Part shown: piece by piece, positions 39,256-48,632 of the stretch
How the letters are laid out: each line of letters opens with the position of its first letter
Numbering within the stretch: position 1 is the first letter of the stretch
Made by a program: the position numbers and the translations under genes
Source of the DNA: Candidatus Enterococcus myersii
GTDB lineage: Bacteria; Bacillota; Bacilli; Lactobacillales; Enterococcaceae
DNA: 48,632 nucleotides
Reading direction: 5' to 3'
Assembly (NCBI RefSeq): GCF_017316025.1
Contig: NZ_JAFLVT010000011.1
Coordinates: 1 to 48,632, forward strand
Notes under the pieces: generated by a model
What the model was told of the DNA's origin: nothing
The model's database searches: none
The model's input: the letters and a program-made list of their open reading frames with translations, nothing else

Positions 39256-40242
39256 ATGAAAAAAATTACCATTAATGATGTTGCCCAAGAAGCAGGGGTC
39301 TCAAAGACAACCATCTCACGTTTTTTAAATCATAATTATGGCAATATGTCCAAAGAAACAAAAGCCAGGATTAAAGAAGTTATTGAGCGCCTAGATTACA
39401 GGCCAAGTAAACAAGCACAAGCATTAAAATCAAAACACAGTTATTTGATAGGTGTTGTCGTTGCTGATATTTCCAATATGTATTCTTCATTATTACTGAA
39501 AGGAATTGGCGAAATACTTGAAAAAAATGGCTATCAAATGATTATTATGGATGCAGGTAACTCGATTAACAGAGAAAAAGAGCTGTTACAACGGCTACTT
39601 GATCAGAGTGTTGAAGGCATTATTTTGCAGCCATCTTCACGGCAGTCAAAACAATATGAATTTATCAAGAAATCAAATATCCCACTACTATTAGTAGATC
39701 GCCAAACAGAACCAGAAGAATGGTCTTCTGTGTTAACCAATAATGTTGACGCCACAAAAGAAGTAGTAAAAAAGGCTTTACAAAAAGGATATGAAGATTT
39801 TTTTGTCCTAAGTGAGCCAATTACCAATGTTAGTACCCGTGAATTGCGTTCGCAAACGGTTATTCAAAGTGTTTTAAAAGCTCGTAAACAAGGGCAAGTA
39901 ATTGAAGTAAATAGTAAAGAAGAGTTGGAAAATGCGATTGCAACAATTCTTTTGAAACCACAAAAAAAATTACTATTTGCTTCAAATGGTCGTGTCTTAA
40001 TGGATAGTTTGGCTATTTTAATTAATCAAAAAATTAATATGCCTGATACAATAGGAATTACAGGTTTTGATGATTGGAGTTTAACAGAACTTGTAGGACC
40101 TGGGATTACAAGCATTGAGCAACCTTCGCAAAAAATTGGCGCAATTGCAGCAGAAAAATTGTTAAACGTATTACGCAATAAAAGTGACGATGTGGCAGAA
40201 ATTATCGTGCCTTCGACAATTCGTTGGCGGAAATCTGTCTAG
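39256..40242 (+). CDS. LacI-family regulator, KdgR-like
   Basis: The protein has 328 residues. The LacI helix-turn-helix (about 1-58; KITINDVAQEAGVSKTTISRFLNHNYGNMSKETK) precedes a sugar-binding domain (about 60-328; GVVVADISNMYSSLLLKGI, then TIGITGFDDWSL). A protein of this type in Bacillus, KdgR, controls 2-keto-3-deoxygluconate genes, and this gene is followed by a KDG kinase and aldolase operon. Three AGAAACCGGTTT-like palindromes lie between it and that operon. It most likely represses the operon in the absence of KDG or a related acid. Confidence 0.9.
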   Translation: MKKITINDVAQEAGVSKTTISRFLNHNYGNMSKETKARIKEVIERLDYRPSKQAQALKSKHSYLIGVVVADISNMYSSLLLKGIGEILEKNGYQMIIMDAGNSINREKELLQRLLDQSVEGIILQPSSRQSKQYEFIKKSNIPLLLVDRQTEPEEWSSVLTNNVDATKEVVKKALQKGYEDFFVLSEPITNVSTRELRSQTVIQSVLKARKQGQVIEVNSKEELENAIATILLKPQKKLLFASNGRVLMDSLAILINQKINMPDTIGITGFDDWSLTELVGPGITSIEQPSQKIGAIAAEKLLNVLRNKSDDVAEIIVPSTIRWRKSV

Positions 40243-40272
40243 TTTAAGTTTTTTTTAAAAAAATATATTCGT

Positions 40273-40320
40273 GAAAGCAGCCTTTAGAAACCGGTTTCTG
40301 AAGGCTGCTTTCATTTTTTT
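40273..40320 (+). terminator. Terminator of the regulator gene, containing an operator
   Basis: A 12-bp stem, GAAAGCAGCCTT (40273-40284) with 40301-40312, is followed by a T run. The inner part is the perfect 14-bp palindrome AGAAACCGGTTTCT (40286-40299), an operator-like site matching the two at the next promoter. Confidence 0.9.
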
Positions 40321-40353: not shown

Positions 40354-40404
40354 TTGACATTTTTTAGAAACCGGTTTACTATACTTGTATAGAAACCGGT
40401 TAAC
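40354..40404 (+). promoter_or_regulatory. KDG operon promoter with two LacI-type operators
   Basis: The -35 TTGACA (40354-40359), 17-bp spacer and -10 TACTAT (40377-40382). Operator AGAAACCGGTTTAC (40366-40379) lies in the spacer, and AGAAACCGGTTAAC (40391-40404) just past the start point. The two centres are 25 bp apart. The adjacent LacI protein is the obvious ligand. Confidence 0.9.
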
Positions 40405-40424
40405 TAATTGAGAGGATGGGCTTT

Positions 40425-41165
40425 ATGAAGAGCAATCAAATCGTACTTAATTTTTTAGTTTTTGCAGAAAAAATTGAAAAAGGTATCCAACAAAATGAAT
40501 TATTATCCCATATCGCTGCTTTAGGTTTTCAAGCTGTGGAAATCCGGCGCGAGTATTTTAAAGATGTTGCAAAAGAAATGCCGCTTATCAAAAAAGAGGC
40601 AGAACGTTTGCATCTTGATTTATTTTACAGTGTTCCAGATGAAGTCTATGTTAACGGTGAAGTTAATCCTAAATTAACAGAATATATTTCCGAAGCAAAT
40701 CAAATGGGTGTGAAACAAATTAAATGGAATATTGGAGATTTTAAAGGAGAGCTTCATGTAGAAAAAATGAAAGCGCTTATTGAAGAAGGCGTAGTGATTA
40801 CAATCGAAAATGATCAAACACAAACTTCTGGAACAATTGCAGCAATTAAAAAATATATGACGGCTGTTAAAGCTGCTGACTTAGCTATTGGCTATGTTTA
40901 TGATTTAGGAAATTGGCGTTTTGTAGGAGCAGACGAACTAGAAGCTGCAAAAGAATTAGCAGAATATGTTCATTATATCCATGTTAAAGATGTCCTTTAC
41001 AAAGAGGATAAACCACAAGCTACTGGCTTAGATCATGGTGTTATCAATTGGCGTAAAGTTTTATCTATTTTGCCAGATGATTGCCCCATCGCAATTGAAT
41101 ACCCAACAACAACCGATGAAGAAATTTTGGAAGCAAAAGCACTTTTAGAGGAGGAAGTAAAATGA
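40425..41165 (+). CDS. TIM-barrel sugar (phosphate) isomerase/epimerase family protein
   Basis: The protein has 246 residues. I chose ATG 40425, with GAGAGG about 9 bp before it; an ATG at 40416 has no usable site. The AP-endonuclease-2 barrel shows LGFQAVEIRREYF, then GVKQIKWNIGDF, VVITIENDQ, IGYVYDLGNWRF and VHYIHVKDV, with Glu, Asp and His positions suited to metal binding. Substrate unknown; the operon suggests a sugar acid or its phosphate. Overlaps the next gene by 4 bp. Confidence 0.82.
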   Translation: MKSNQIVLNFLVFAEKIEKGIQQNELLSHIAALGFQAVEIRREYFKDVAKEMPLIKKEAERLHLDLFYSVPDEVYVNGEVNPKLTEYISEANQMGVKQIKWNIGDFKGELHVEKMKALIEEGVVITIENDQTQTSGTIAAIKKYMTAVKAADLAIGYVYDLGNWRFVGADELEAAKELAEYVHYIHVKDVLYKEDKPQATGLDHGVINWRKVLSILPDDCPIAIEYPTTTDEEILEAKALLEEEVK

Positions 41166-41407
41166 GTGACCAACAAACAAAAATAGATGCCGAAAAATTT
41201 GCTTATCATTTCATGGATACGATTAATCGACCTGAAATTGATACAGAAAATATGCAAGATGCAGCCAAGGAAGCATTAGCTGCTTACTTAACAGCTTATT
41301 ATTTAATTCAAAAATTTAATCATTTAGAAAATGACTTTTTCGTAGAAGATCATAAGAAACCTGTTTCCAATTATCAACGTATTTTGAGTGAGTTAAACAA
41401 ATATTAG
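41162..41407 (+). CDS. Unknown 81-residue protein in the KDG operon
   Basis: Not recognised. It is acidic, probably helical and soluble, without Cys pairs or membrane segments: DAEKFAYHFMDTINRPEID, then DAAKEALAAYLTAYYLIQKFNHLE. The start overlaps the previous stop (ATGA) after a GAGGAGG site, and the permease starts 12 bp later, so it is certainly expressed with the operon. It could be an accessory or regulatory subunit of an enzyme or the transporter. Confidence 0.8.
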   Translation: MSDQQTKIDAEKFAYHFMDTINRPEIDTENMQDAAKEALAAYLTAYYLIQKFNHLENDFFVEDHKKPVSNYQRILSELNKY

Positions 41408-41419
41408 GAGGCGTAGAAC

Positions 41420-42691
41420 ATGGGTGGCGCAATAACTGGAATTTTACTTGCATTAACCTTTATCGTATTTGTCATTTACGCGATGAAAGGCGGAAACTTA
41501 ACCGTCGGCTTCTTCGTTATGGCAGTTTTATGGACGATTATTGGCTTGGTTCCTTTTAACCAAGCAATTAAAGAAATTTTTACTGAACCTGTTTTGAATT
41601 ATGGGAAAACAGCAGCATATATTATTTTTGGTTCTTGGTTTGGACGTGTGCTAGTAGATACTGGTATTGCAGGAAGTATTAGCCGTCGGACAGAAAAAGT
41701 AGGAAAGAAAAGCCCGGTATTAGCGACAATTTTAATCGCTTTTGTAATCGCTTTAATATTTACCAGCTCTTACGGTGTAGGGTCTGCGATTGCTGTCGGC
41801 GTGATCTTGTTTCCAATTATGTTCTCCATTGGTGTACCACGAAATATTGCCGTTTCGGTTTTTACGATTGCAATTGGTGCAGCGATGTATGTGAACAATG
41901 TTTTGTTCGTTCAATTTCAAGTGTTCTTCCCTAAAGTTGCTTGGGGCCCACATTATCAACGTTTTGGTTTTGTTGCAATGGGCATTCAGATGGTTATTTT
42001 AGTGCTATTCATTTTATTTAATGCAAAAAAAATTCGCAATGGCAAACCTGAAATTATTGAAAGTGACAGTGAAGAAGAGATCGTGGAAGTACCAATTTGG
42101 ACGTATGTTTTACCAGTATTACCAGTTGCTTTAAGCATTTTTGCTAAATGGGATGCCGTACCAGCTTTGCTGCTTTCAACGATTATTGCTTTTGCAGCAA
42201 CTGGGAATATGAAGAAGTATACAAAGTTTGTCATGATGATGAATGAAACTGCAAAACATGCAATTAGTGATATTGCGGGATTGTTAATTATGTTGTTTGT
42301 CTTAACGATGTTCCAATCTGCAGCAGTTCATGCAATGTCTGGTTTTACGAGTGTGTTCCAACAAGTTATTCCAGATAGCAAACTAGCCTTAATCATCATT
42401 GTAGCGATTATTGCACCGCTTTCTTATTTCCGCGGTCCTTTGATGTTGTATGGTGCAGGTGCTGCTACGGCGGCAATTTTAGTAGGAACGGGAATGTTCG
42501 ATCAATATTTCTTATACGGTTTACTGGTAGTTCCTTCTATGATGGGCGTTTCTGCCTGTATTACACAATCTTGGAACTTATGGTCAGTTCAATATGCAGG
42601 TTTGGATACAAAAACATTCTTATTAACGGGTCTGCCTTGGGCGTGGGCCGCAACAGTTTTGAATTTAATCGCAGCTTATATCTTACTTTAA
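41420..42691 (+). CDS. Sugar-acid permease, GntP/CitM-like
   Basis: The protein has 423 residues and about 12 hydrophobic segments: ILLALTFIVFVIYAMKGG, TVGFFVMAVLWTIIG, TSSYGVGSAIAVGVILFPIMFSIGVP, a loop rich in Glu near residues 205-218 and a re-entrant-looking second half. The overall plan fits the ion transporter superfamily that includes gluconate permeases, and the operon context suggests uptake of 2-keto-3-deoxygluconate or another hexonate. No dehydratase making KDG is present, which favours direct import of the keto acid. The exact family assignment is uncertain. Confidence 0.75.
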   Translation: MGGAITGILLALTFIVFVIYAMKGGNLTVGFFVMAVLWTIIGLVPFNQAIKEIFTEPVLNYGKTAAYIIFGSWFGRVLVDTGIAGSISRRTEKVGKKSPVLATILIAFVIALIFTSSYGVGSAIAVGVILFPIMFSIGVPRNIAVSVFTIAIGAAMYVNNVLFVQFQVFFPKVAWGPHYQRFGFVAMGIQMVILVLFILFNAKKIRNGKPEIIESDSEEEIVEVPIWTYVLPVLPVALSIFAKWDAVPALLLSTIIAFAATGNMKKYTKFVMMMNETAKHAISDIAGLLIMLFVLTMFQSAAVHAMSGFTSVFQQVIPDSKLALIIIVAIIAPLSYFRGPLMLYGAGAATAAILVGTGMFDQYFLYGLLVVPSMMGVSACITQSWNLWSVQYAGLDTKTFLLTGLPWAWAATVLNLIAAYILL

Positions 42692-42715
42692 AATAAAAGA
42701 AAAGAGGAATTTAAC

Positions 42716-43675
42716 ATGAGTGAATTTTTAACAATTGGTGAACCTATTGCATTATTTGGATCAGAAGAAGTAGATAAGTCTTTAAAAGATGCTCTGCATT
42801 TTCAAAAATTTTTAGCCGGAGCAGAAGTTAATGTAGCTGTTGGGGTGGCTCGTTTAGGTCATAGTAGTGAATATATTACACAAGTAGGAAAAGATCCGTT
42901 TGGCGAATTTATCATTGATCGACTACATGAAAATAAAATTGGGACTGATTATATTTCAGAGTCTGCAGATTTTTGGACAGCATTCCAATTAAAAGATAGA
43001 GTAAGTGATGGCGATCCAAGTATTTTCTATTTCCGTAAAGGTTCAGCAGCGGCCCATTTTGAAAAAGAGGTCCTGGATAAAATTGATTTTTCTGAAGTCA
43101 AAATGGCACACTTATCAGGTATTTTTCCAGCTATTTCACCAGAAGCACAAGAAGCATTCCGGTATTTAATTAAGCTTTTGGAAAAACATCAAATTCGGAC
43201 AACCTTTGATCCAAATTTACGCCCACAATTATGGGCTAGCACTGAAGAAATGGTAAGTACAATCAATGACTTAGCTTCTCATGCGGAAATTGTTTTACCT
43301 GGTATTAATGAAGGTGAAATTTTAATGGGCAGTCGCAATCCCGAAAAAATTGCTGACTTTTACTTAAACAACGGCAACGCAACGAAAACAGTCATCGTGA
43401 AATTGGGAACAGAAGGTGCGTATGTCAAAGAAAAGAATGGTACAAGTTACACGGTTGCAGGCTTTAAGGTTGAAAAAGTAGTCGATACAGTTGGTGCAGG
43501 GGATGGCTTTGCCGTCGGATTAATCACTGCTTTAATTGAAGGCGAAGATCTAAAAGATGCAGTAGTCCGTGCCAATGCCATTGGTGCGATGGCTGTTCAA
43601 TCTCCTGGGGATAACGACGGCTATCCAACGCCAGAACAATTGCAGGAATTTTTACAAAATCAGAAGGTGAAATAA
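42716..43675 (+). CDS. kdgK: 2-keto-3-deoxygluconate kinase (PfkB family)
   Basis: The protein has 319 residues. It starts FLTIGEPIALFGSEE, with the PfkB N-terminal motif reading AGAEVNVAVGVARLG. The C-terminal motif DTVGAGDGFAVGLI holds the catalytic Asp of GAGD. It would phosphorylate KDG to 2-keto-3-deoxy-6-phosphogluconate, the substrate of the aldolase at the end of the operon. Other keto-sugar acids are possible. Confidence 0.88.
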   Translation: MSEFLTIGEPIALFGSEEVDKSLKDALHFQKFLAGAEVNVAVGVARLGHSSEYITQVGKDPFGEFIIDRLHENKIGTDYISESADFWTAFQLKDRVSDGDPSIFYFRKGSAAAHFEKEVLDKIDFSEVKMAHLSGIFPAISPEAQEAFRYLIKLLEKHQIRTTFDPNLRPQLWASTEEMVSTINDLASHAEIVLPGINEGEILMGSRNPEKIADFYLNNGNATKTVIVKLGTEGAYVKEKNGTSYTVAGFKVEKVVDTVGAGDGFAVGLITALIEGEDLKDAVVRANAIGAMAVQSPGDNDGYPTPEQLQEFLQNQKVK

Positions 43676-44311
43676 ATGAAGTTACAAACCGCAATTGATC
43701 GTATTTCGATAGAAGAAGCAGAAGAATTAGCGCAACAGCTTAATGGGAAAACAGATATTTTAGAGATGGGCACTTCTTTAGTTAAAGATTATGGGAATGT
43801 TGCAATTTGGCGCATGCGCCAAAAACTGACTCAGACAACGTTATTAGTAGATAGTAAAACAATTGATGAAGGAGCCTATGAGTTTAATCAGGCTTTTCAT
43901 TATGGTGGAGATATTGTCACGGTGATGGGGGCTGCGTCTTATGACACCCTTGTTGCTTGTTATAAGGTTGCACAAAAAGAAAACAAAACAATGATGATTG
44001 ATTTATTAGAAGTAAGTGATGAAAAAATTGCAGCAATAAAAGATTTTCCCGGGGCAATTTATGCCTTGCATCATTCGATTGATCGCAAGGATAAATTGGA
44101 TGCTGTGGCAACTGTAGCAGCATTCCACGAAAAATTTCCTACAATCAAACGCTTGGCTATTGCTGGAGGTATTGATTTAGAACAAACAAAAAAATTAGCG
44201 CAACAAGGATTATTGGAAGTGGTAATTGTAGGTTCAAAAATTGCCAAAGCACAAGATCCAATTAAGGCAGTAAATGAATTTATGGAGGCAATTCATTATG
44301 AAAACAATTGA
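43676..44311 (+). CDS. 3-hexulose-6-phosphate synthase-like protein (OMP decarboxylase superfamily)
   Basis: The protein has 211 residues. The barrel shows DILEMGTSLVKDYGN, LLVDSKTIDEGAYE with the Asp-x-Lys-x-x-Asp catalytic set, GGDIVTVMGAASYDT and AIAGGIDLEQ. The family includes hexulose-phosphate synthase (ribulose 5-phosphate plus formaldehyde) and 3-keto-L-gulonate-6-phosphate decarboxylase. The partner gene next door is a phosphohexuloisomerase, which favours the synthase. It follows kdgK without a gap and overlaps the isomerase start by 14 bp. Confidence 0.82.
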   Translation: MKLQTAIDRISIEEAEELAQQLNGKTDILEMGTSLVKDYGNVAIWRMRQKLTQTTLLVDSKTIDEGAYEFNQAFHYGGDIVTVMGAASYDTLVACYKVAQKENKTMMIDLLEVSDEKIAAIKDFPGAIYALHHSIDRKDKLDAVATVAAFHEKFPTIKRLAIAGGIDLEQTKKLAQQGLLEVVIVGSKIAKAQDPIKAVNEFMEAIHYENN

Positions 44312-44840
44312 AACAATTATGGCAGAAATTAATCACGTCATGGCATTAGTGGATGAAAAACAACTGGAAGATGCATTACCTTTGTTTCAAAAAAACAAAC
44401 GTATCTTTGTTATTGGCGCAGGTCGAAGTGGCTTTCAAGCAAAAGGATTTGCTATGCGTCTAATGCATATTGGCTATACTGATTTTGTGATGGGAGAAAC
44501 CATTACACCTTCAATTCAAAAAGGAGATACCTGGGTAGCTATTTCAGGTTCGGGGACCACCAAAGGAATTGTAGCAGATACACAAGCAGCTAAAAAGTTA
44601 GGTTTAGACATCGTTGTTTTGACTAGTGATTTGACATCTCCGCTGGCCGAATTAGCTGATAAAGTTATTGTTGTGCCTGGTGCAACTAAAACAGGTGCAG
44701 GGATTAAATCTGTTCAATTATTATCAAGTCTTTTTGATCAAACTGTGCATATTACATTAGATGCATTGACGTTGAAATTAGCCGCACGAGACGAAACTTC
44801 GAATGAAGATGCGCTACATGAACACGTCAATGTAGAGTAG
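44298..44840 (+). CDS. hxlB: 6-phospho-3-hexuloisomerase
   Basis: The protein has 180 residues. ATG 44298 follows GGAGG by 9 bp; an ATG at 44274 lies inside the upstream gene without a site. It is a SIS-domain protein: IFVIGAGRSGFQAKGFAMRLMHIGY, GDTWVAISGSGTTKGIV and the C-terminal SVQLLSSLFDQTVHITLDAL, all typical of HxlB. It interconverts hexulose 6-phosphate and fructose 6-phosphate. It pairs with the upstream synthase-like gene. Confidence 0.88.
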   Translation: MKTIETIMAEINHVMALVDEKQLEDALPLFQKNKRIFVIGAGRSGFQAKGFAMRLMHIGYTDFVMGETITPSIQKGDTWVAISGSGTTKGIVADTQAAKKLGLDIVVLTSDLTSPLAELADKVIVVPGATKTGAGIKSVQLLSSLFDQTVHITLDALTLKLAARDETSNEDALHEHVNVE

Positions 44841-44849
44841 AGGTTCGCG

Positions 44850-45488
44850 ATGAAAAAAGGAGAAGTTTTAGCTCGCCTTGAAAAAACAGGAATTGTTGCA
44901 GTCATCAGAGAAGAAACGACGCAACAGGCGCTAAATGCGGCAAAAGCAGTTGTTGCAGGTGGAATTTTGGGATTAGAAGTGACGTTTTCTGTACCTAATG
45001 CTGCTGCTGTGATTACACAGCTTAAAGAAATCTATCCTGTAAAAAGTGGTGTAGTCATTGGTGCAGGTACGGTACTTGATGCAACGACGGCGCGGTTGGC
45101 AATTATGGCAGGGGCTGAATTTATTGTGAGTCCTACTTTTAACAAAGAAACGGCTCAAATCTGTAACTTGTATCAGATTCCTTATTTGCCGGGATGTATG
45201 ACAATAACAGAAATGCAGCAGGCGTTGATGAGTGGAGCAGAAATTGTAAAATTGTTTCCTGCTAACAATTTTGAACCAACATTAATTAAGAGTATTAAAG
45301 CTCCGTTGCCGCAAATTAGCATTATGCCCACAGGTGGCATTAATCTAGATAACCTGGCAGCTTGGAAAAATGCTGGGGCTCTCTTGGTTGGGGTTGGTGG
45401 TAATCTTTTTCAAGGCGTTGCCGAAAATGACTACGCACAAGTAACCAAAACGGCCGCGCTCTATAGCAAAAAATGGCAGCAAATCTGA
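44850..45488 (+). CDS. eda: KDPG/KHG aldolase
   Basis: The protein has 212 residues. ARLEKTGIVAVIREE and GLEVTFSVPNAAAVI hold the active-site Glu; VIGAGTVLDATTARLAIMAGAEFIVSP and AEIVKLFPANNFEP follow, where Lys of VKLFPA is the Schiff-base residue. It splits 2-keto-3-deoxy-6-phosphogluconate into pyruvate and glyceraldehyde 3-phosphate, completing the pathway begun by kdgK. It is the last gene of the operon, and a structured terminator follows. Confidence 0.92.
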   Translation: MKKGEVLARLEKTGIVAVIREETTQQALNAAKAVVAGGILGLEVTFSVPNAAAVITQLKEIYPVKSGVVIGAGTVLDATTARLAIMAGAEFIVSPTFNKETAQICNLYQIPYLPGCMTITEMQQALMSGAEIVKLFPANNFEPTLIKSIKAPLPQISIMPTGGINLDNLAAWKNAGALLVGVGGNLFQGVAENDYAQVTKTAALYSKKWQQI

Positions 45489-46359: not shown

Positions 46360-47865
46360 TTAAAAGCTATTTTTCGTTCTTAAAATAAAAATTTGGTTTG
46401 CTACTTTTTTGATTAAAGACTGCAATGCCGCTTGATCTAATTGGCTTTCAAGTAGATAAATAATTTTGGCTTCGTAACGGACATCTGTTAGTGGGCAATC
46501 TGTAATAATGATATCGCATTGGCTAAAAACACGTCTTTTAAATAGAAGCTGGTCTGTGCCAAAGATATGTTCTAATTGTGCACACAAATCATCGGCTACG
46601 TAATAGTCTCGGGTGTAATTGACTCCAATTTGTATTTTTGAAGTTGGTTTGAAGCGATCATAAAAATGCAGCAAATCTTCAATCATCCAATCTGAATCGT
46701 ATTTTTTTATAACGTGATTTTGAGTATTTGCAAAGTCCTGGTAAAAGGCGGAAATTTTTTGTTGAATAATACCATGATTCAGTTCATTTTGTAGGCTAGA
46801 GCTGGGTAGGGTCGTGTTAGGTTGAGTAGGCACAAAGAGCTTGGCGTAAAGTTGATGCCGGATAAAGTTTAACGTATAAAGTTCGAGTTCTTCTAAAGGT
46901 ACCAGCAAATTAAATTGTGAGATAAAATCAGTCAATAAATCTTTTGTTGCCAAAAAAATGGGTGCCTGTAAATTTTTTAGTTGAAGATATTGTTTGTGAT
47001 TTAACGTAGGACTGTCAATTTTTGCAAGAGAAAGTCGCGCTAATAGATTAATGAGATAACGCTGATCTTGCGTCACAGGCGCCTGTTCTTTTACGATATC
47101 AAAAGATTGGATAAATAGACTAGAAAAATTTTCCAAATTTTTGAGACTAGCGCGAAATTCAGTTAAACTCGTGACGGGAAAATAAGTATGAACGGACTGA
47201 AAAATGACAAAAAGTTTGTCTAGCATACTAGAATTAAGCTCCAAAATAATCCTGTCTGTAAAATAAGTACGTAAAACTTGGTTTCTATTTGCGTTTTTTT
47301 GCGCATGAAAGATAGGACCTGTATTGGTATGAATATTCCAATAGATGTCTAACATACAGTATTGAATTTGAATTTCACTGCCACTAATTTTTTTGGTTCC
47401 ATTGGCTGCAAAGTTTATTGTAATCCCATACAGTGCTAAAAAATTATTGATTTCTTTCATCTTAGAATAAACATGTGGTGCACTAAAATGGGTTGCTTGA
47501 CTAATTTTAGTAATTGAAGTATTCGACTTATCCAATAACGAAGTTAAAATAATATAATTTGTCGCAGCTTCGCAGTAATTTGTAAAAAGTTGATAGTACA
47601 GACGTGCGCAATCTTGGGAAGCAATATCTAAAAAAATGAATTTATTTTCTTTTTTGATGGCTTTAACTGGATAGTCAATCTGAAATAAATCTTTTTTTAG
47701 TTCTTGTAAATAGACTGTTAAATTCGCCTCAGAAATTTTAAAACGATTAGCAATGAAATGCGTTGTAATTGGAAAATCGAGGTCTGCCAAAAACTTGAAA
47801 ATATTTAATTTGATTCTGTTTTTTTTCTTTAATAAATGATTTTGAATTGCGGCTTGCGTTTCCAT
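46360..47865 (-). CDS. Mga-like virulence-type transcriptional regulator
   Basis: The protein has 501 residues. N-terminal helix-turn-helix regions (about 20-65; ITTHFIANRFKISEANLTVYLQELKKDL, and about 110-150; SITKISQATHFSAPHVYSKMKEINNFL) are followed by PRD-like domains (about 165-400) and an EIIB-like C-terminus (about 415-500). This is the Mga/AtxA plan. The ATG follows GAGGTGA. It is divergent from a surface-protein gene 136 bp away, which is the typical target arrangement for Mga regulators, so it is likely to activate that gene. PTS phosphorylation may adjust its activity. Confidence 0.85.
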   Translation of the reverse strand: METQAAIQNHLLKKKNRIKLNIFKFLADLDFPITTHFIANRFKISEANLTVYLQELKKDLFQIDYPVKAIKKENKFIFLDIASQDCARLYYQLFTNYCEAATNYIILTSLLDKSNTSITKISQATHFSAPHVYSKMKEINNFLALYGITINFAANGTKKISGSEIQIQYCMLDIYWNIHTNTGPIFHAQKNANRNQVLRTYFTDRIILELNSSMLDKLFVIFQSVHTYFPVTSLTEFRASLKNLENFSSLFIQSFDIVKEQAPVTQDQRYLINLLARLSLAKIDSPTLNHKQYLQLKNLQAPIFLATKDLLTDFISQFNLLVPLEELELYTLNFIRHQLYAKLFVPTQPNTTLPSSSLQNELNHGIIQQKISAFYQDFANTQNHVIKKYDSDWMIEDLLHFYDRFKPTSKIQIGVNYTRDYYVADDLCAQLEHIFGTDQLLFKRRVFSQCDIIITDCPLTDVRYEAKIIYLLESQLDQAALQSLIKKVANQIFILRTKNSF

Positions 47866-48001: not shown

Positions 48002-48632
48002 TTGAAAAAGACGAAGAAAATCTTTATTGTTAGTATTTTTATGACATTTTTTATGACAATAACTGGTAGTGTTGCTCATGGAAGCTCTTTAGACGAACAA
48101 AATCAAGCAACTGTTGCATCTAGTGGTTGGGCAAACGCCAATTGCATTACCTTTTCTGATGATTTTTACTTATTTAATTCTGGAGTAACTAAGATGCAAG
48201 TAGGTCAAAAAATTACCGTTTATGGTGAAATAGATTTCTCGGGAGATACGCTTCCAATTGGTCAAGCTCAAATTATTTTTTCCAATGTAGACCCTGCGTT
48301 AGCTGCATCTTATGATAATAATTTGACTTTTGACTTTACGAATAAAAAAGGATACTTCTCCTTTTCGATTGTTTTGCTGGATTCAATTGTTGGTCCTAAA
48401 TTATTCACGGTGAAAGTTTTGGATAGTAATCCAGAAGATAAACAGCATTTGACTCCGTATAGCCAAACACAAACGATTATCCAAGATCCAAACGATCCAT
48501 ACTTAGATACGAAGAATGATGACCCAAGTGACCCAAGTGAGCCAAGTGACCCAAGTGACCCAAGTGACCCAAGTGAACCAAGTGAACCAAGTGAACCAAG
48601 TGAACCAAGTGAGCCAAGTGAACCAAGTGAAC
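48002..48632 (+). CDS. Secreted surface protein with Pro-Ser-Asp/Glu repeats (cut by window edge)
   Basis: It starts at TTG 48002, about 8 bp after GGGG. The signal peptide is KKTKKIFIVSIFMTFFMTITGSVAHGSS. A domain of about 140 residues follows (SGWANANCITFSDDFYLFNSG, then VGQKITVYGEIDFSGDTLPIGQAQIIF), which looks like an immunoglobulin-like adhesin fold, though I do not recognise a family. From 48524 a 9-bp repeat encodes PSD or PSE at least 12 times and continues out of the window. Such repeats usually span the cell wall ahead of an LPxTG anchor, which would be outside. It is probably controlled by the Mga-like protein. Confidence 0.8.
   Translation, partial: MKKTKKIFIVSIFMTFFMTITGSVAHGSSLDEQNQATVASSGWANANCITFSDDFYLFNSGVTKMQVGQKITVYGEIDFSGDTLPIGQAQIIFSNVDPALAASYDNNLTFDFTNKKGYFSFSIVLLDSIVGPKLFTVKVLDSNPEDKQHLTPYSQTQTIIQDPNDPYLDTKNDDPSDPSEPSDPSDPSDPSEPSEPSEPSEPSEPSEPSE
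48524..48632 (+). repeat. 9-bp tandem repeat encoding Pro-Ser-Asp/Glu
   Basis: Twelve complete copies of CCAAGTGAN run to the window edge. The third codon varies between GAC, GAG and GAA. Copy number is expected to vary between strains by slippage. Confidence 0.95.

Follow-up and report, generated by a model that had tools for sequence, protein, structure and literature searches.

The operon considered here lies in a 48,632-nucleotide stretch of Candidatus Enterococcus myersii DNA (contig NZ_JAFLVT010000011.1; hereafter, the window), and it raises a simple question: what would relatives of hexulose-6-phosphate synthase (HPS) and 6-phospho-3-hexuloisomerase (PHI), the enzyme pair of the ribulose monophosphate (RuMP) pathway, be doing in an operon for a sugar acid? 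The original prediction, made from the letters alone, took the locus for a 2-keto-3-deoxygluconate (KDG) kinase-aldolase operon. We think it quite probable, on comparison with related loci, that it is a kgu (2-ketogluconate [2KG] utilization) operon in which an HPS-like/PHI-like pair stands in place of the reductase KguD. The case for a 2KG context is strong, and 2KG itself is very probably the substrate; an isomerase-decarboxylase route for its breakdown is likely. Sequence comparison supports the gene content, the exchange of modules, a separate HPS clade and the candidate operators; both reactions of the pathway are predictions. The features concerned are as follows.

39256..40242, + strand: LacI-family regulator (PF00356 and Peripla_BP matches), proposed to have a PtxS-like role
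40271..40314, + strand: terminator-like hairpin 3' of the regulator (1 found against 0.1 expected in shuffles)
40286-40299: operator 1, AGAAACCGGTTTCT, a palindrome within the terminator-like hairpin
40354..40382, + strand: promoter-like site TTGACA-17-TACTAT, a consensus match only
40367..40376, + strand: operator 2 core, GAAACCGGTT, between the promoter hexamers
40392..40401, + strand: operator 3 core, GAAACCGGTT, just past the promoter-like site
40416..41165, + strand: KguE-like xylose-isomerase-type TIM barrel (1yx1 match), with a proposed role in 2KG use
41162..41407, + strand: 81-amino-acid (aa) open reading frame (ORF) that belongs to no known family and overlaps kguE at its end
41420..42691, + strand: membrane transporter, proposed importer of 2KG (and KDG) in place of KguT
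42716..43675, + strand: PfkB kinase, proposed 2-ketogluconate 6-kinase (KguK), perhaps a KDG kinase too
43676..44311, + strand: HPS-like protein, proposed 3-keto-6-phosphogluconate decarboxylase (profile, alignment, tree and AlphaFold2 model)
44298..44840, + strand: PHI-like (SIS) protein, proposed 2-keto-/3-keto-6-phosphogluconate isomerase (TIGR03127, conserved columns)
44850..45488, + strand: Eda, aldolase for 2-keto-3-deoxy-6-phosphogluconate (KDPG) and 2-keto-4-hydroxyglutarate (KHG), an optional member (NF005119)

The regulator gene and the seven genes downstream of it run in one direction and overlap or are tightly spaced, as read from the ORF list and the DNA. The genes listed at the outset (kinase, eda, the HPS/PHI pair, the TIM barrel and the regulator) are real ORFs whose families agree in our scans; the 81-aa ORF had been passed over. 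The start of the PHI-like gene at 44298 was set by comparison with relatives, an earlier ATG lying at 44274. The family scans appear to back the family names, though not every function. Eda passed both of its cut-offs in the NCBIfam scan (290.7 against 238 for NF005119, and 181.6 against 156); the 81-aa protein and the transporter had no Pfam or NCBIfam match at all. Relatives of the transporter carry the public labels "gluconate:proton symporter" or "SLC13 family permease."

Exchange of modules among kguE clusters

The evidence that carries this reading comes from a KguE-anchored scan, the best 80 of whose 322 confirmed matches represent 80 kguE genes in 79 distinct named loci. A cluster was called complete if kguE was accompanied by a transporter, a kinase and a following module, as was the case for 65 of the 80. 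In 51 of the complete clusters the module is HPS plus PHI, and in 14 it is a KguD-like D-2-hydroxyacid dehydrogenase. With KguD counted at at least 60% identity to one of three reductase queries (themselves 34-37% identical to Klebsiella KguD and matching PF02826/PF00389), none of the 65 contains both modules; nor is KguD present among the operon genes of the window. Such conservation of the gene set goes far beyond what chance would give. Eleven kguE genes stand alone. The DNA of L116 and L144 breaks off beyond the kinase, and neither is counted among the complete clusters; L144 also has a second kguE without a transporter, and at L142 the kinase, HPS, PHI and eda are present and the transporter is absent.

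The HPS-type clusters belong to Enterococcus, Vagococcus, Pisciglobus, Staphylococcus, Pediococcus and many lactobacilli, together with metagenome-assembled genomes named Paenibacillus (1) and Aerococcus (1). Those of the KguD type come from Leuconostoc (8, all in species other than L. mesenteroides), Weissella (3), Fructilactobacillus (1) and Lentilactobacillus senioris (2). Mapped onto a tree of the kinases of 66 operons, the choice between HPS and KguD has to change twice, and well-supported branches force both changes; the KguE tree likewise requires two, only one of them forced. The optional members are spread unevenly: Eda is found in 25 of the 51 HPS-type clusters (and absent from 26) and in none of the 14 of the KguD type, and the 81-aa ORF in 42/51 and 7/14, respectively.

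Two HPS-type operons lie near transposase genes on plasmids typed as mobilizable, one in Tetragenococcus halophilus (pHDC; L211:4470-10915) and one in Lacticaseibacillus paracasei (L210:6010-12064). Three divergent kgu-type operons (L054:5356-8156, L061:11316-14176 and L207:3632) encode a protein of ~705 aa, which is hydantoinase/oxoprolinase-A-like in L061, 60% identical in L207 and alike by eye in L054; in L054 and L061 it is adjoined by an additional protein of 222-248 aa.

Pointers to 2-ketogluconate

The TIM barrel falls in the xylose-isomerase-like family PF01261. The one solved structure to which its sequence is related is PA2260 (1yx1; E value of 1.2e-19), which we take to be the KguE of the Pseudomonas aeruginosa 2-ketogluconate operon. 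The TIM barrel of the window is 33% identical to Klebsiella KguE (E value of 3e-36), and its metal-type residues E131, D163, H189 and E228 are invariant across 18 rows. KguE is perhaps a mutarotase that opens the pyranose for phosphorylation on C6, since the C6 hydroxyl is tied up in the pyranose form. It would suit such a role that P. plecoglossicida without kguE still depletes 2KG, but at 30 h instead of 16 h (PMC11678583). A second KguE-like protein (33% identical) is encoded in the same genome at G000:C10:48985-49656 (L053), with no kgu gene labelled nearby.

With 45% identity (261 bits) to the operon kinase (KguK) of K. pneumoniae, whose record names its products generically, the window kinase is a putative 2-ketogluconate kinase. 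In the PDB it matches 4du5 best (229.5 bits), a "PfkB" for which no function is stated, followed by the KDG kinase of Thermus thermophilus (129 bits). It passed none of the 25 kinase models shown, scoring 160 against 400 for KDG/KDGal kinase and 185 against 300 for IolC; the KDG kinase models NF040938 and NF052444 stayed below cut-off (160 and 110.8, each against 400). Klebsiella KguK shares the same two top NCBIfam models, and the "kdgK" label first given to this gene thus does not discriminate. According to PMC6651773, purified KguK of Cupriavidus necator phosphorylates KDG as well and also accepts 2-keto-D-gulonate; the introduction to that paper mentions a 2-ketogluconate kinase from Leuconostoc mesenteroides.

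At 29.5% identity to Klebsiella PtxS, a figure that alone does not single out PtxS, the regulator gives no preference to the "KdgR-like" label that it first received either, and the operators are of the PtxS type. All four matches to GAAACCGGTT in the window lie between the regulator and kguE, two of them being the two strands of operator 1; 0.12 were expected, and 0 of 100 shuffles reached 4. AAACCGGTTT is the core of the PtxS site TGAAACCGGTTTCA, and the Pseudomonas kgu operator has the same AAACCGGTTT core as the operators here. PMC11678583 and PMC3402500 give TGAAACCGGTTTCA as the PtxS site and 2KG as the PtxS effector. Within 600 bp upstream of kguE, AAACCGGTTT was found for 27 of 52 HPS-type genes, 12 of 14 of the KguD type, 1 of 3 in cut clusters and 0 of 11 lone genes, with 53 matches in total across the 79 loci (1.38 Mb). 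The operon thus appears to be preceded by candidate PtxS-type operators, which we regard as support and not as proof, since LacI operators are often alike. The only further exact GAAACCGGTT copies in the genome, C1:135440 and C27:218235, lie inside ORFs of 582 and 520 aa. No kgu genes are labelled around either, and in this search for exact sites no KDG-making gene was found beside one.

One public K. aerogenes record labels successive genes as PtxS, KguE, 2-ketogluconate kinase, transporter and 2-ketogluconate 6-phosphate reductase. The window operon shares a LacI regulator, KguE, a PfkB kinase and one transporter with this operon type, as known from Pseudomonas (kguE-kguK-kguT-kguD, ptxS) and Klebsiella/Enterobacter; unlike it, the window operon has the HPS-like/PHI-like pair, no KguD, a transporter of another family and the 81-aa ORF, and Eda accompanies about half of the HPS-type clusters; no edd match passes its cut-off in the window's genome. 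KguT homologues (58-68%) were found in 15 of the 250 genomes of a class-wide sample. HPS and PHI adjoin KguT in 10 of these (G302, G464, G621, G655, G699, G701, G748, G754, G765 and G773), and no KguD match is labelled in the stretches of any of the 15. KguK homologues (52-57%) are present in the KguT loci L190-L192 and L194-L196, and KguE is present in L188, L190-L192 and G302; the L188 operon also encodes a transaldolase and a transketolase, enzymes that would process ribulose 5-phosphate. The window's own genome has no KguT match at an E value of ≤1e-90, the other transporter being present instead.

Could the operon nonetheless serve KDG, which would be imported, phosphorylated and cleaved by Eda, with HPS and PHI as passengers or formaldehyde detoxifiers? 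The kinase and Eda families fit, Eda passes its cut-off, and the C. necator enzyme accepts KDG (PMC6651773). Furthermore, edd was above cut-off in 0 of 30 genomes tested, so that KDPG would have to come from KDG, and a classical Entner-Doudoroff path completed by Eda is improbable. (An ILVD_EDD match in the window's genome was considered as Edd and rejected; it is IlvD.) However, KguE, the operators and the KguD and KguT variants all point to 2KG, the HPS-like clade lies apart from the formaldehyde-fixing enzymes, and Eda is dispensed with in 26 of the 51 HPS-type clusters. KDG also has no 3-hydroxyl, and a C2/C3 isomerase therefore could not act on it. We consider KDG unlikely as the main substrate, contrary to the original prediction, and favor 2KG.

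The HPS-like and PHI-like proteins and the proposed route

HxlA (TIGR03128) is the best model for the HPS-like protein and yet is not passed (157.1 against 200), while the PHI-like protein does pass HxlB (TIGR03127; 189.5 against 160). A tree of 111 rows unites those linked to kgu genes in a single clade of 72 (support of 100/97), sister to nine rows that we call GTG type; canonical HPS and 3-keto-L-gulonate-6-phosphate decarboxylase (KGPDC) sit across a 99/98 branch. The nearest named relatives of the window protein are those of Enterococcus canintestini and E. dispar. "Canonical" here means that PHI adjoins and that no kgu gene occurs in the stretch, which mostly spans only a few kb. Sequences of <195 aa, identical copies and the short-context copies L162-L173 were left out of the tree, and automatic ORF selection labelled no HPS in L216, L221 and L223; four kinase-plus-PHI rows and six PHI-less rows were kept as separate groups, and the canonical HPS of L133, which lies on the opposite strand near a kgu operon, was moved by hand into the canonical group. 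In the conserved-column alignment, the "other" PHI group wrongly includes the short-context kgu loci L164-L166 and L168.

The combination R9/S34/K37/M84 is present in 69 of 69 kgu rows and in 2 of 2 KguT-only rows; all four occur together in 0 of 25 canonical rows, where position 9 is Leu in 23, position 34 Pro in 24 and position 84 Leu in 24 (the exception, L202, is of the GTG type), and where R9, S34 and M84 are found in 1, 0 and 1, respectively. D8, E30, D59, K61 and H132, which we take to be the catalytic residues of HPS (Asp, Glu, Asp-x-Lys and His), are conserved in 70 of 70 rows. In an AlphaFold2 model (14 sequences; mean pLDDT of 94, pTM of 0.90), R9 follows strand 1 (residues 2 to 7), S34 and K37 stand at the start of the helix that follows strand 2 (28 to 31), and M84 ends strand 4 (80 to 84). 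R9, S34 and M84 are thus modelled at the C-terminal ends of strands 1, 2 and 4, respectively, on the predicted active-site face of the TIM barrel, and an Arg next to Asp8 could hold a carboxylate.

2KG is D-arabino-hex-2-ulosonate, that is, fructose with C1 oxidized to a carboxylate. PHI shifts a carbonyl between C2 and C3, and HPS in reverse cleaves the C1-C2 bond of the 3-keto form to yield formaldehyde and the enediolate of ribulose 5-phosphate; in the KGPDC reaction, the C1 carboxylate leaves as CO2. Because 2KG is fructose with a C1 carboxylate, each step of the route that we propose is an exact analogue of PHI and HPS chemistry, with CO2 replacing formaldehyde. 2KG would be imported and phosphorylated on C6 by the PfkB kinase to give 2-keto-6-phosphogluconate, which the PHI-like protein would isomerize (C2/C3) to 3-keto-6-phosphogluconate, from which the HPS-like protein would form ribulose 5-phosphate and CO2. 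The net outcome would be that of KguD plus 6-phosphogluconate dehydrogenase (6PGDH), minus NADPH and with no reductase needed; this same net result would explain why the reductase and the isomerase/lyase pair are interchangeable. Eda would serve a side branch, in which the operon's kinase probably phosphorylates KDG as well, and the route also fits Eda being optional. The earlier suggestion that the pair acts on an unusual C6 keto-phosphate to make ribulose 5-phosphate is probably right. That this amounts to a new sugar-acid pathway, spread across Lactobacillales as well as some further Bacilli and comprising two new activities (2-keto-6-phosphogluconate 2,3-isomerase and 3-keto-6-phosphogluconate decarboxylase) that would take 2KG to ribulose 5-phosphate and CO2 with no redox cofactor, we hold to be fairly likely.

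A textbook role for the pair is distinctly improbable, be it formaldehyde fixation or the reverse, from fructose 6-phosphate to ribulose 5-phosphate and formaldehyde. Such a role would account for the catalytic residues kept in all 70 rows, for a PHI score above the HxlB cut-off and for the HPS-like D109, I135 and A163 of the window protein; it sits poorly with the subthreshold HxlA score (157 against a curated 200) and with R9, S34 and M84, invariant in the kgu rows and all but missing from the canonical ones, and it leaves the swap with a 2-keto-acid reductase unexplained. That formaldehyde fixation has no obvious place here had been remarked at the outset, and we concur: the operon contains no formaldehyde source, and its HPS-like clade is separate. 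Compared with HxlA/HxlB of the RuMP pathway, then, the window pair belongs to the same two adjoining families and keeps the catalytic residues, but differs in its R9/S34/K37/M84 clade, its sugar-acid operon and a proposed release of CO2 rather than formaldehyde. With KGPDC (UlaD/SgbH), it would share the decarboxylation of a beta-keto-acid 6-phosphate to a pentulose 5-phosphate; it would differ in acting on the D and not the L series, and it has HPS-like diagnostic residues and lies outside the KGPDC branch.

Some further loci deserve mention. In Lentilactobacillus fungorum, a canonical HPS/PHI pair (L133:15137-15766) lies on the opposite strand near a kgu-type pair, a natural side-by-side comparison. 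L199:4092-7325 has a GTG-type HPS-like protein without PHI in a uronate-type operon (Eda, mannonate dehydratase and mannonate oxidoreductase); it passes the HxlA cut-off (243 against 200) although its context suggests a sugar-acid enzyme, and L200 and L201 resemble L199 in gene order and size. L197:2756-7765 and L198:2376-7500 combine GTG-type HPS and PHI with PfkB kinases and tripartite ATP-independent periplasmic (TRAP) transporter genes, possibly for another keto-acid pathway; L197 adds an Ldh_2 reductase. Downstream of the window operon, a gene for what is probably a secreted protein, with a PSEPSDPS-type repeat, begins at the very end of the window (48002-48631) and runs past it; before it, on the strand opposite to that gene, lies an AcpB/EbpR/MafR-like regulator (46360-47865).

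Counterevidence, known systems and meaning

A number of observations weigh against a reductase-free 2KG route. Distant 2-hydroxyacid dehydrogenase matches (28-33%) occur near L100, L142 and L144; in five of the 15 KguT genomes (G675, G715, G734, G771 and G779) neither module, HPS/PHI or KguD, was seen in the stretch (G771 does encode, on a different contig, an HPS that scores as canonical); and an internal stop interrupts the G655 HPS frame. Among the loci searched, transketolase and transaldolase join one operon only (L188). We had entertained the idea that HPS-type genomes lack 6PGDH, and this failed: 30 of 30 genomes have a match (in G699, G621 and G754 only to a short, ~300-aa kind), so the bypass may not be needed. 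R9, K37 and M84 are common to the GTG-type sister clade, which comes from other sugar-acid contexts, leaving only S34 specific to the kgu clade. E112, R139 and T169 are, we assume, the positions that separate KGPDC from HPS, and there the window protein has the HPS-like D109, I135 and A163; it is therefore not a plain KGPDC. In P. plecoglossicida, a strain without kguK still depletes 2KG, though only by 22 h, and one without kguD or kguT can hardly use 2KG at all (PMC11678583), so the kinase step is not strict in that organism. Finally, as phenotypes of strains that may or may not carry the operon, Tetragenococcus strains and E. burkinafasonensis are reported to be 2KG negative by API, and E. 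innesii 2KG positive.

It is very improbable that the isomerase-decarboxylase chemistry holds while the true substrate is not 2KG but another 2-keto sugar acid shaped like it. A transporter that differs from KguT and has no family would allow it, as would the acceptance of 2-keto-D-gulonate by C. necator KguK (PMC6651773), but sister loci carry KguT and KguK homologues. Least credible is cleavage of 2-keto-6-phosphogluconate by Eda to hydroxypyruvate and glyceraldehyde 3-phosphate, with KguE as hydroxypyruvate isomerase and HPS/PHI acting elsewhere; KguE does belong to PF01261 and Eda does lie within the operon, but Eda is optional (25/51), and the 14 KguD-type clusters yielded no Eda even though they have KguE.

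Fermentation of 2KG by Streptococcus faecalis was reportedly described by Goddard and Sokatch in 1964, to go by the title. PMC7701990 discusses enterococcal Entner-Doudoroff (ED) genes and the missing edd, and proposes for E. faecalis a "Sokatch ED shunt" that likewise concerns sugar-acid use with eda and a PfkB kinase and without edd; it differs in its operons (EF0422-0426 and EF2263-2266), and the word "hexulose" is absent from the paper. A galacturonate pathway of Lactobacillus suebicus (mannonate kinase and 6-phosphomannonate 2-epimerase), as given in part of PMC6978723, would likewise lead from a sugar acid to ribulose 5-phosphate in a lactic acid bacterium without net use of a redox cofactor; it runs via 6-phosphogluconate, and that part identifies no genes. 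Among the open-licence literature matches listed, none links HPS/PHI to 2KG use, and the suggestion that this is an undescribed sugar-acid pathway stands to that extent. Comentions in PMC9171043 and PMC9472446 were considered as prior descriptions and set aside, being, in the portions found, unrelated or plain annotation tables; PMC9472446 lists HPS, hexuloisomerase and KDG kinase genes of sourdough bacteria, and "ketogluconate" does not occur in that portion.

The genes are ordinary as families; it is their combination that makes a conserved and apparently undescribed, reductase-free version of the kgu operon. 2KG is otherwise used by direct reduction or by a kinase plus a reductase. If our reading is true, there is a further route, without a redox step, a point of weight for fermenters, which have to keep NAD(P)H in balance. 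Such a route offers a testable job for HPS/PHI homologues in bacteria not known as methylotrophs, and the KDG kinase and formaldehyde labels now attached to such genes in enterococci and lactobacilli would be corrected; many genes of lactic acid bacteria named hexulose-6-phosphate synthase or hexuloisomerase would prove to be misnamed. The pair would then yield ribulose 5-phosphate from an oxidized sugar, and RuMP formaldehyde fixation and sugar-acid decarboxylation would be two uses of one HPS/PHI family pair.

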